A DNA stretch of 61,269 nt from Deltaproteobacteria bacterium (GTDB lineage Bacteria; Desulfobacterota; Syntrophia; Syntrophales; UBA2210), in assembly GCA_016930775.1 (NCBI GenBank), contig JAFGGB010000149.1, forward strand, positions 1 through 61,269. Direction: 5' to 3'. Every line of letters starts with the position of its first letter. Within the stretch, counting starts at the first letter, position 1. The notes beneath the pieces were generated by a model. The model had not been told where the DNA came from. It saw only the letters and a program-made list of their open reading frames with translations, and did not search any database. Below are positions 29,351 to 61,269 of the stretch, one piece after another. The translations under genes and the position numbers were made by a program.

Positions 29351-29449
29351 GAAGTCGATGGTTTATCTATTGAAGGGGTGCAGCAATTCTGCTATTGTCG
29401 GTTGAACGCACAGACTCGACGACGGGTCGGCGACAGAAATGGGAGAATC

Positions 29450-31378
29450 ATGCGCCATATTATCGTCGGCACGGCCGGCCATGTTGATCATGGCAAAACG
29501 GCTCTTGTAAAGGCCCTGACAGGCATCGATACGGACCGCCTGAAGGAGGAGAAGGAAAGGGGCATCACCATAGAATTGGGATTCGCCTCTCTGGTCCTTG
29601 ACAACGGTCGGACCGTTGGAATCATCGACGTTCCCGGCCACGAACGGTTTGTGAAAAACATGGTTGCCGGCGCCGGCGGCATTGACCTCGTCGTAATGGT
29701 CATCGCCGCCGACGAGGTCGTCATGCCTCAAACACGCGAACACCTTGAGATCTGCGAACTTCTCGATATCAAAAAAGGCATTGTGGCCCTCACTAAAACC
29801 GATCTTGTTGACGATGAATGGAGAGGGTTGGCTGAAGAAGACGTCAGGGAGTTCCTTAAAGGAACCTTCCTGGAGGAAGCATCGATCGTCCCTGTATCGG
29901 CCCTCACAGGCGAAGGCATCGCAGATCTCAGAAAAGGAATAACAACCCTTGCCGAGAATACGGAATACCAAAGGCATGGCGAGTTCTTTCGTCTCCCCGT
30001 AGATCGCGTATTTACGATGAAGGGTTTCGGCACAGTCGTGACAGGCACTCTTATATCAGGTTCAATCTCGGTGGGCGACATCGTTCAAGTCATGCCGGAC
30101 GACCGGACGGCAAAGATACGAGGAATCCAGGTTCACGGTAAATCGGTCGAAAAGGCTGAAGTAGGACAGAGAACGGCAATCAACCTCCAGGGAATAGAGA
30201 AAACTTCGATTGAACGCGGAGAAATTCTCACGCAGCCGGATGTCTTCAGTCCCACCAGTCGAATTGATGTATTCCTTCGCTATCTTAATCGCAGCGGTAA
30301 AAAACTGAAAAACAGAAGCCGCGTCCGTTTTCATTCGGGAACCAGTGAAATCATGGCCCGAATCATCCTTCTCGGAAAAACCGAGATGGCTCCGGGGGAA
30401 TCGTGCTATGGACAGATACTATTGGACGAGCCGACAGTGGTCATGTCGAAAGATAAGTTTGTTCTCAGAAGTTATTCGCCAATCACGACGATCGGCGGTG
30501 GCGATATTCTCGATCCACTGGCAACAAAAATCAAATCATTCGATGAGGTTGCAGTACGAGATCTAGCAAGGTTGGCCGAAGGAAGCGACGATGAAAAAAC
30601 AGTCGCTATCCTCAATCGGGCAGGCATCGAGGGCATCACTCCAATAACCCTGGCTCTTCGGACGGGCCTTTCATTGAAACGGCAGGACAAGATCGTTGAG
30701 GACCTTCTTTCACGGAAGGAAGCTATTCTCATCGACCGTGAGGAGCGAAGGCTTCTCTCCCAGAAAACATACAACGCCTTTATAGAAACAATCCGTGAGT
30801 TGGTTACGCTCTATCATAAAAAATTTCCATTGAAGGAAGGAATCTCCCGCGAAGAACTAAAGGGCTCTGTTGCCCGCTTCGTAAATGCCAAGATCTTCAG
30901 TAAAGCCATGATAGACCTGGAACAACAGGGCCTGCTCGTCATAGACCAGGATTCCATCAGCCTGGCGGAACACCGAGTGAGTCTCAGCGTCGACATGGAA
31001 GATCTAAAAGAGAGCATTATCCGGTGGTACCGAAAAAACAGCCTGTCGCCCCCGACGACGAAGGACGTGAAAGAGGCCTACCCAGGGAAGGAAAAAGAGG
31101 TAGCGAACGTCCTGGAAATATTGGTCAACAATGGAACTCTTTTGAAAATAAGCAACGACCTCCTGTACGACGCAACGGCAATTGCGCGACTCAGAGAAGC
31201 TTACCGGGCGCTTCTTCTCAAGGAAGGCAAGACATCGCTTCAACATTTCAAGGATCTCACGGGAGGACTTACGAGGAAGTTCCTTATTCCACTCATGGAA
31301 TATTATGATGCCACTAAACTTACCATACGGGTAGGAGATCATAGAATTTTAAGGGAAGGAAGAAATGACAATAGCTGA
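29450..31378 (+). CDS. selB: Selenocysteine-specific elongation factor SelB
   Basis: GTPase that delivers selenocysteyl-tRNA to UGA codons followed by a SECIS hairpin. It has 642 residues from the ATG at 29450 (GGGAG 4 bases upstream; the frame extends 72 bases further). EF-Tu-like G domain: GHVDHGKT at 10-17, DVPGH at 60-64, TKTD at 115-118. Two beta-barrel domains follow, then winged-helix repeats from about residue 380 to the end, the SECIS-binding part. Its presence implies selenoproteins and selA, selC and selD elsewhere; none is visible here. The last 14 bases overlap the fdhD-like gene. Confidence 0.97.
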
Positions 31379-32129
31379 AACAGTTTCTGTAAATATCGGG
31401 TATTTCGATGGAACATCACTTTGCCGTCGTCCGTTGACGGTTATACGGGAAACCTCCGTAACGATAACGCTCAATGGACAAAATATAACAACCAATGCCT
31501 GCACGGGCATTCATCTCGACGAAATGGCAGCGGGCTACCTCAAATCAACAGGCCTGATACGCGGCTTCGACGAAGTCGTATCGATTGAAGCCGATGAGCC
31601 CGGTAGAATCATATCTGTGACAACAAACAGGCCGACGCCCCATCAGAAAGGCATGTATATAGGTTCCAGCGGCGCCAGGAGTGCGCTGCTTGATAGAACA
31701 GGCCCGCCCCTACAAACGGACAGACTGCTGTCGCCTCATCTGGTTCTAAAATTGATCGAAGAACTGTTGTCGTCGACGACCTTGCACGATGCGACCGGCG
31801 GCGCCCACTGTTCAGCACTCGCGTCGCACGAAGACGGAATCATTATTGCGCGAGAGGATATAGGCCGCCACAACACCATCGACATGGTCTGCGGTTATGG
31901 TCTGTTGAAGGGTCTCGATCTCTCCGACAAGATAATTCTCACAACCGGCCGGGTTTCTTCGGAAATCGTCCGTAAGATCTGGCGTATTGGAGTGCCTTTC
32001 ATAATCTCTCATTCTGCGGCGACGTCAAGGGCTGTGGAAGATGCAGAGCAGGCGGGAATTACCGTTGTTGGCTATGTTCGCCGAGGGACCATGAGAATAT
32101 ACAGCCAGGGGAAACGGGTGGAGATGTGA
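31365..32129 (+). CDS. FdhD-like protein lacking the CxxC sulfur-transfer motif
   Basis: Belongs to the FdhD family, whose members pass sulfur from a cysteine desulfurase to the molybdenum or tungsten cofactor of formate dehydrogenase. It has 254 residues with the family landmarks LDEMAAGYLKSTGLI (51-65), TGGAHCSAL (144-152) and DIGRHNTID (165-173). The loop that normally reads SSCGxCGK here reads SSGARSAL (101-108), so both sulfur-carrying cysteines are absent. Other cysteines remain (Cys20, Cys46, Cys149, Cys176), Cys149 being close to the conserved TGG-H motif. It overlaps selB by 14 bp and the next gene by 4 bp. It may be a paralogue with a changed role. Confidence 0.88.
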   Translation: MTIAETVSVNIGYFDGTSLCRRPLTVIRETSVTITLNGQNITTNACTGIHLDEMAAGYLKSTGLIRGFDEVVSIEADEPGRIISVTTNRPTPHQKGMYIGSSGARSALLDRTGPPLQTDRLLSPHLVLKLIEELLSSTTLHDATGGAHCSALASHEDGIIIAREDIGRHNTIDMVCGYGLLKGLDLSDKIILTTGRVSSEIVRKIWRIGVPFIISHSAATSRAVEDAEQAGITVVGYVRRGTMRIYSQGKRVEM

Positions 32130-33139
32130 GCGCAAAGCCCTTTATTCAGGATATACAGGCAGGTGACCGGGTCAAGAGTTCGTTTCTTGTGATCGAAAAG
32201 AACCTGGCTTTTTCGCAGAAAGGCAATCCCTACCTCTCGTTGCGGCTCAGCGACAAAACAGGCAGCATCGACGGCCGCATATGGGACCGTGCTCAGGAAT
32301 GCAGCGAAACCTTTCAAAAAGGCAATATAGTTGCCGTCGATGCCAGGGCTCTCAAATATAAAGATGTTATCCAGCTTTCCATTCTGGACATTGTCCCTCT
32401 TCGCGACAATGAGATCGATCCCATGGATTACCTGCCGTCGTCGAAAGAAGACGCTTCTTCCATGTTCAAGCGCCTTCTTGCTTTCATCGACAGCATCGAC
32501 GATCCCCATCTCCAAGCGCTTCTCCAATCGATTTTCCGTGATGAGACAGTGGCGTCAGCCTTCATGCGATCACCGGCAGCAAAAGGATTTCATCACTCCT
32601 ACATCGGCGGTCTCCTGGAACACACCCTATCAATGGTGATCCTGCTCGACGTTGTGGCCAATCATTATAAGGGCGTTAACAGGGATCTCCTCCTTGCCGG
32701 CGGCATTCTCCACGACATCGGCAAGATCGAAGAGTTGGCTTGCAAGCGGATGATCGATTATACGGATGTTGGACGGCTGATCGGCCATATAGTCCTTGCC
32801 GTTGAAATGATAGATAAAAGAATAGCAGACATAGTAGATTTCCCCGAAAAACTGGCCATGGAGCTGAGACATATCATTCTCAGCCACCACGGCATTCTCG
32901 AATACGGCTCGCCAAAGCGGCCGAAGACCGTTGAAGCCCTGATAGTCAACTTCGTCGATGACATGGATGCAAAGGTAAACGCCTTTCAGGAATTCATTAA
33001 AGATTCCGGAGATGATTCGAACTGGACTGGATTTCACCGCCTACTGGAGAGGTTCATTTACAAGGGCGGCGGCACTGCGGACAGAAGGAACGATCTCGCT
33101 GATGCGTTCGAGGAAAGCGGATTGGACCGACGTGAATAA
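32126..33139 (+). CDS. YhaM-like OB-fold/HD-domain 3'-5' exoribonuclease
   Basis: 337 residues. The N-terminal OB-fold nucleic acid-binding domain (about 15-92, YLSLRLSDKTGSIDGRIWD) is followed by an HD phosphohydrolase domain with LLEHT (His166), the HD pair at 196-197 in GGILHDIGK, the His-His in ILSHHG, and a distal aspartate in VNFVDDMDA. This architecture is that of Bacillus YhaM/Cbf1. The start is a GTG overlapping the fdhD-like stop as GTGA, preceded by GGTGGAG. It completes the three-gene plus-strand unit. Confidence 0.88.
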   Translation: MSAKPFIQDIQAGDRVKSSFLVIEKNLAFSQKGNPYLSLRLSDKTGSIDGRIWDRAQECSETFQKGNIVAVDARALKYKDVIQLSILDIVPLRDNEIDPMDYLPSSKEDASSMFKRLLAFIDSIDDPHLQALLQSIFRDETVASAFMRSPAAKGFHHSYIGGLLEHTLSMVILLDVVANHYKGVNRDLLLAGGILHDIGKIEELACKRMIDYTDVGRLIGHIVLAVEMIDKRIADIVDFPEKLAMELRHIILSHHGILEYGSPKRPKTVEALIVNFVDDMDAKVNAFQEFIKDSGDDSNWTGFHRLLERFIYKGGGTADRRNDLADAFEESGLDRRE

Positions 33140-61198: not shown

Positions 61199-61269
61199 TG
61201 GTGGCGGTGCAGGGACTTGAACCCCGGACACTGCGGATATGAGCCGCATGCTCTCACCATCTGAGCTAC
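61199..61269 (-). tRNA. tRNA-Met (anticodon CAT), 5' end cut by window edge
   Basis: Visible on the minus strand: D-arm GCTC...GAGC, anticodon stem TGCGG/CCGCA around CTCATAT, T-arm GGGGTTCAAGTCCC, acceptor 3' strand CACCGCC, discriminator A and encoded CCA. About six bases of the 5' acceptor strand lie beyond the edge. The sequence resembles elongator tRNA-Met; a lysidine-modified tRNA-Ile (CAT) cannot be fully excluded. Confidence 0.9.

Follow-up and report, generated by a model that had tools for sequence, protein, structure and literature searches.

The FdhD protein of Escherichia coli is a CxxC sulfurtransferase and chaperone for FdhF, FdnG and FdoG. Its loop residue Cys121 stimulates IscS, yet formate dehydrogenase (FDH) is still active in the C121A, C124A and double mutants, and cysteine mutants of the Rhodobacter capsulatus counterpart FdsC, the double Cys-to-Ala mutant included, still mature active FDH (PMC6239281). 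Sulfur transfer via the loop cysteines is disputed: older work cited in PMC6239281 and PMC10609526 found Cys121 to be essential in E. coli, whereas in other studies of E. coli and in R. capsulatus these cysteines were dispensable. According to a review, FdhDs without a loop cysteine exist and might use a different sulfuration route (PMC10609526), and R. capsulatus FDH has been sulfurated in vitro by sulfide and a strong reductant, with no chaperone (PMC12140954).

We examined an fdhD-like gene from a deltaproteobacterial metagenome-assembled genome (MAG; 3.12 Mb, 96.9% complete), located on a 61,269-nucleotide stretch of DNA (hereafter, the window) that contains the following features:

29450..31378, + strand: selB, selenocysteine-specific elongation factor, 642 aa from the ATG at 29450 (TIGR00475, 383 bits, above the cut-off of 242)
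31365..32129, + strand: fdhD-like gene without a loop cysteine, 254 aa, ATG start
31665..31688, + strand: loop SSGARSAL (residues 101-108), at the site where other FdhDs carry the cysteine(s) for sulfur transfer
31857..31874, + strand: DIGRHN (residues 165-170), conserved across the FdhD family (at least 95% over 155 FdhDs)
31944..31976, + strand: TGRVSSEIVRK (residues 194-204), the TGR...E...K block, with G195, R196, E200 and K204 at least 95% conserved over the same 155 FdhDs
32126..33139, + strand: OB-fold and HD-domain gene (PF01966, PF01336) resembling the 3'-5' exoribonuclease YhaM, GTG start

The open reading frame 31365-32129 was confirmed to encode a full-length FdhD that lacks the loop cysteine. 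The protein matches PF02634 (FdhD-NarQ) with 207.3 bits (cut-off 27.2, E = 3.8e-61) over profile positions 1-236 of 237 and passes the TIGR00129 cut-off (163.7 vs 140.9 bits), although its NF001943 (NCBIfam) score of 159 is below the cut-off of 269. The AlphaFold2 model (pLDDT 91.7) retrieves as its best PDB matches in Foldseek the FdhDs of E. coli (4PDE, 1.5e-23) and Desulfotalea (2PW9, 8e-22), the next best match having an E value of only 1.4e-3. An alignment of 155 FdhDs contains 18 sites with at least 95% conservation; E29, H148, DIGRHN, GR195-196, E200, K204 and R239, all conserved at this level, are kept in the window protein, in agreement with the sequence-only reading that the remaining family landmarks are intact. 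DIGRHN is likely to be part of a putative nucleotide/cofactor site.

That reading's main point, a loop without the CxxC cysteines, is borne out as well: S101-S102-G103-A104-R105-S106-A107-L108 contains no cysteine, the only cysteines of the protein being residues 20, 46, 149 and 176. Thus, the window protein has neither the CxxC of E. coli-type FdhDs nor at least a C121 equivalent in the disordered loop, a region (residues 91-110) where the model confidence is at its lowest (pLDDT 56-60). The cysteines are absent as claimed, but their proposed replacement by Gly and Ser depends on the alignment: the position of the first cysteine is occupied by Ala104 (TSG-C-GKG vs SSG-A-RSA) or, in the larger alignment, by Gly103.

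The end of selB at 31378 and the start of fdhD at 31365 give precisely the 14-bp overlap noted previously. The SelB wing domains PF09106 and PF09107 were detected in the selB product, for which a longer, GTG-initiated frame opens at 29378. Downstream, the YhaM-like gene, which scores 198 bits with NF010007 (below the cut-off of 460), shares its first 4 bp with the end of fdhD. The selB linkage is conserved among the relatives: the distance from the selB stop to the Glu29 codon downstream is 71-195 bp (median 87), so that the two genes everywhere overlap or almost touch, and in 34 of 62 cases overlapping starts are the sole option. In L142, an open frame of 846 aa gives the appearance of a SelB-FdhD fusion, which was rejected because seven Ns at the junction mark an assembly gap. 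At the far end of the window (61202-61269, - strand), a tRNA gene with a CAT anticodon (Rfam tRNA, 48.5 bits) is truncated where the contig ends.

Whether relatives share the loss was assessed at two scales. In the family sample of 19 genomes, including that of the window, all selB-linked FdhDs lack the loop cysteine, and in three of them (L026-L028) the loop itself is deleted. In the wider set, a search of the genome contigs with the single protein gave no matches, whereas an alignment-based search yielded at least 80 loci. In the tree of 155 FdhDs, built without the columns of the loop, Cys46 and Cys149, a clade of 76 rows was recovered (SH-aLRT 81), with the loop motif SSGA[RK] or, in one sublineage, with the loop deleted. 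The window protein shows the defining traits of this clade, namely, an SSGA[RK]-type loop, Cys46, and selB directly upstream. In none of the 76 members does the SSGA motif include a cysteine; two rows were flagged for Cys, but not within the motif proper, so that the search for a CxxC pair elsewhere at the equivalent site came out empty. Because clade members from other genomes share the loss of the motif cysteine, a sequencing error in the window is ruled out as its cause. The named clade members come from Syntrophaceae, Smithella, Syntrophales and deltaproteobacterial MAGs, and the clade apparently belongs to Syntrophales; outside the order, both selB-adjacent FdhDs that were found (L181, L187) retain the loop cysteine. 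One family of the order has an overlapping tandem pair of fdhD-like genes (L153:2225-3744; also L155 and L156), of which the first has no loop and the second one has an SGGGRTAY loop; the loop cysteine is present in neither, and the two products possibly form an obligate heterodimer.

Two other cysteines of the window protein are candidates for the missing thiol:

31500..31502, + strand: codon of Cys46, the sole cysteine invariant in the clade (76/76)
31809..31811, + strand: codon of Cys149, beside the invariant His148 (55/76 in the clade, 5/79 elsewhere)

The sequence-only reading raised the possibility that sulfur transfer had moved to another cysteine and pointed to Cys149. This residue is concentrated in the clade, and three actinomycetal FdhDs with SGFGKG loops also have a cysteine at this site (HCSAL). 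However, 21 of the 76 clade members have Ala, Gly or Ser instead, the tree implies repeated changes at this position, and whole sublineages without it remain selB-linked. Being present in 55 of the 76 members only, Cys149 cannot be the general replacement, which contradicts its role as the clade-wide relocated sulfur site and leaves this proposal highly improbable. Relocation to Cys46, which is part of an IAC[TA]G motif immediately preceding the first helix and would act as the persulfide acceptor, appears unlikely too, but is less improbable given the invariance of this cysteine and its clade-specific surroundings (A45 and G48 in 100% of the members). Nevertheless, E. coli FdhD has Ala at this position, and Cys46 is also found in 59 of the 79 other FdhDs, mostly together with the loop cysteine; hence, Cys46 is not a replacement that was gained upon the loss. 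The three actinomycetal proteins (L119, L123, L139, Actinomycetota), in which Phe replaces the loop cysteine, branch apart from the selB-linked clade.

The MAG of the window encodes exactly one PF02634 protein, and the search for a second fdhD returned none at this level of completeness. It further encodes three molybdopterin oxidoreductases (PF00384), all with an in-frame TGA within VDHCARLUHS or EHCARLUHS, where HCARLUHS is presumably the active-site motif of FDH; because the TGA is located in this motif, all three are read as selenocysteine-containing FDHs (Sec-FDHs). One has N-terminal ferredoxin-like domains, one is FdhF-like, and one has a twin-arginine-like leader; the latter is followed (L208:7086-12695) by genes for an iron-sulfur subunit, an NrfD-type membrane subunit and an FdhE-like protein (PF24859, 34.9 bits). 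SelA is clearly present (598 bits), whereas for selD there are only an AIRS-family match below the cut-off and a C-terminal fragment located where a contig ends. tRNA-Sec was not detected in this MAG, which we read as an assembly gap because 15 of the 18 other family genomes carry it (73-77 bits). Together with SelA, the three Sec-FDHs substantiate the proposed tie to selenium-dependent FDH, and they are the candidate targets that an FdhD chaperone requires. Several class-V aminotransferases were identified in the genome as well, including IscS-like ones, one of which adjoins IscU.

In the family sample, where genomes other than that of the window were scored by in-frame TGA in PF00384 genes and the Sec motif proper was inspected only in the genome of the window, 13 genomes have no FdhD other than the Cys-less type, and at least one such TGA-containing gene is present in 12 of them; these genes are kept also in G004-G006, where the loop is deleted. 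Purifying selection acts on the clade, as dN/dS of close pairs is about 0.16-0.45. These observations bear on the possibility that the protein abandoned FDH maturation for another role, such as regulation or selenocysteine decoding, or is decaying. The loss of the residue that defines the sulfurtransferase, along with the location in a selB operon, could be taken in this sense, but retention of the cofactor-site motifs and the fold, dN/dS well below 1, and the sole-FdhD status in 13 family genomes, 12 of them with TGA-containing PF00384 genes, make it improbable. Three genomes (G001, G003 and G018) have both FdhD types, which, like the IscS-like enzymes in the genome of the window, would be compatible with a thiol supplied in trans, by a loop-Cys FdhD acting as a heterodimer partner or by another persulfide carrier. 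We consider this quite improbable given that the loop-Cys type is absent from the 13 genomes, so that such a partner cannot be general, and that linkage of a carrier gene to the selB-fdhD locus was not found.

A comparison of gene neighborhoods within the order involved 26 loci of loop-Cys FdhDs, which have one loop cysteine (SGCGKG), and 57 named loci (L062-L118) matched by the selB-type alignment. The selB gene is adjacent in 52 of the 57 Cys-less-type loci and in 0 of the 26 loop-Cys loci; conversely, a desulfurase, IscU or NadA is encoded within 5 kb in 20 of the 26 loop-Cys loci, compared with 1 of the 57, with a desulfurase 4 kb away; some of the loop-Cys loci are cut by contig ends. Fisher's test, which ignores kinship among these phylogenetically non-independent loci, gives p of about 5e-13 for the donor genes and 7e-17 for selB. 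A cysteine desulfurase-like gene is found near 16 of the 26 loop-Cys loci. The nadA-fdhD pairing occurs in 18 of the 26, and one such FdhD is encoded in an rrf2-iscS-iscU-nadA-fdhD cluster (L204:9188-13087). Thus, the loop cysteine accompanies a sulfur-donor neighbor, and its absence accompanies selB; Syntrophales appear to hold two FdhD types, a selB-linked one without the loop cysteine and an Isc/desulfurase-linked one with a single loop cysteine. As this partition suggests, the loop cysteine may serve chiefly for cooperation with a desulfurase.

The reading we favor, with a probability of roughly 0.6, is that the window protein is a working FdhD-type bis-MGD chaperone for Sec-FDHs, with sulfuration proceeding without a loop thiol relay. 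Under this scenario, the fdhD-like gene would be translated together with SelB and its product would serve the Sec-FDHs of the organism. The protein most likely still binds bis-MGD via the conserved residues of the FdhD nucleotide site and would deliver it to apo-FDH. No loop cysteine would relay sulfur from a cysteine desulfurase to form the terminal sulfido ligand; instead, sulfide or persulfide would probably react directly with the cofactor while it is bound to FdhD or FDH. The published data and the gene partition fit a chaperone that dropped its dealings with the desulfurase. The alternative raised in the sequence-only reading, that sulfur transfer is lost altogether, is unlikely because such FDHs need the sulfido ligand and the genome has a single FdhD; losing just the loop thiol route would already account for the data. 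That reading also envisaged a subfamily that lacks the pair and yet matures FDH by a known mechanism: the whole subfamily does lack it, and active FDH can be matured without these cysteines (PMC6239281), although the mechanism is not fully known. Against the favored reading, Cys46, invariant in the clade, could be the relay thiol; a second fdhD could be missing from the incomplete MAG; and G007, with the Cys-less type only, has no TGA-containing PF00384 match. More speculatively, and with the odds against it, syntrophic bacteria might possess a dedicated Sec-FDH maturation line, in which SelB and a loop-Cys-free FdhD are made together and the sulfido ligand comes from low-potential sulfide with no protein cysteine relay, in parallel to the desulfurase-linked loop-Cys FdhD.

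Cysteine-poor FdhDs, and mutants that are active without the loop cysteines, are already known from publications. What appears to be new is the selB-coupled SSGA[RK] clade, the finding that it supplies the sole FdhD of genomes with TGA-encoded FDHs, and the desulfurase/selB partition, of which we found no description in the open-access papers searched. A Cys-less clade of this kind, with the loop deleted in one sublineage, amounts to a natural experiment on the sulfur-transfer dispute, and sulfuration without a loop cysteine is also relevant to producing Sec-FDHs in heterologous hosts for CO2 reduction.

Compared with the known systems, the window protein shares the family and fold with E. coli FdhD (4PDE; Foldseek E 1.5e-23, TM 0.81/0.85), as well as the DIGRHN/DVGRH, TGR/SSR and E/K sites; the E. 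coli protein differs in having C121 and C124 in GCGVCG and in not being encoded with selB. For FdsC of R. capsulatus, the loop cysteines are similarly dispensable for FDH maturation (C104/C107 to Ala active; PMC6239281), but there the CxxC is still present, whereas the lineage of the window protein has lost it. The group III FdhDs with one or no loop cysteine (PMC6239281) and the FdhD of Methanococcus maripaludis, in which the loop cysteine is gone (PMC10609526), resemble the clade in retaining the cofactor-binding motif; the clade is distinguished from these by being bacterial and selB-linked and by its own SSGA[RK] loop. The Isc/NadA-linked loop-Cys FdhDs (L013, L014, L035-L044) belong to the same order and family, and the paralogous copies coexist in some genomes, but these proteins have one loop cysteine (TGCGRG or SGCGKG) and desulfurase, IscU or NadA neighbors in place of selB.
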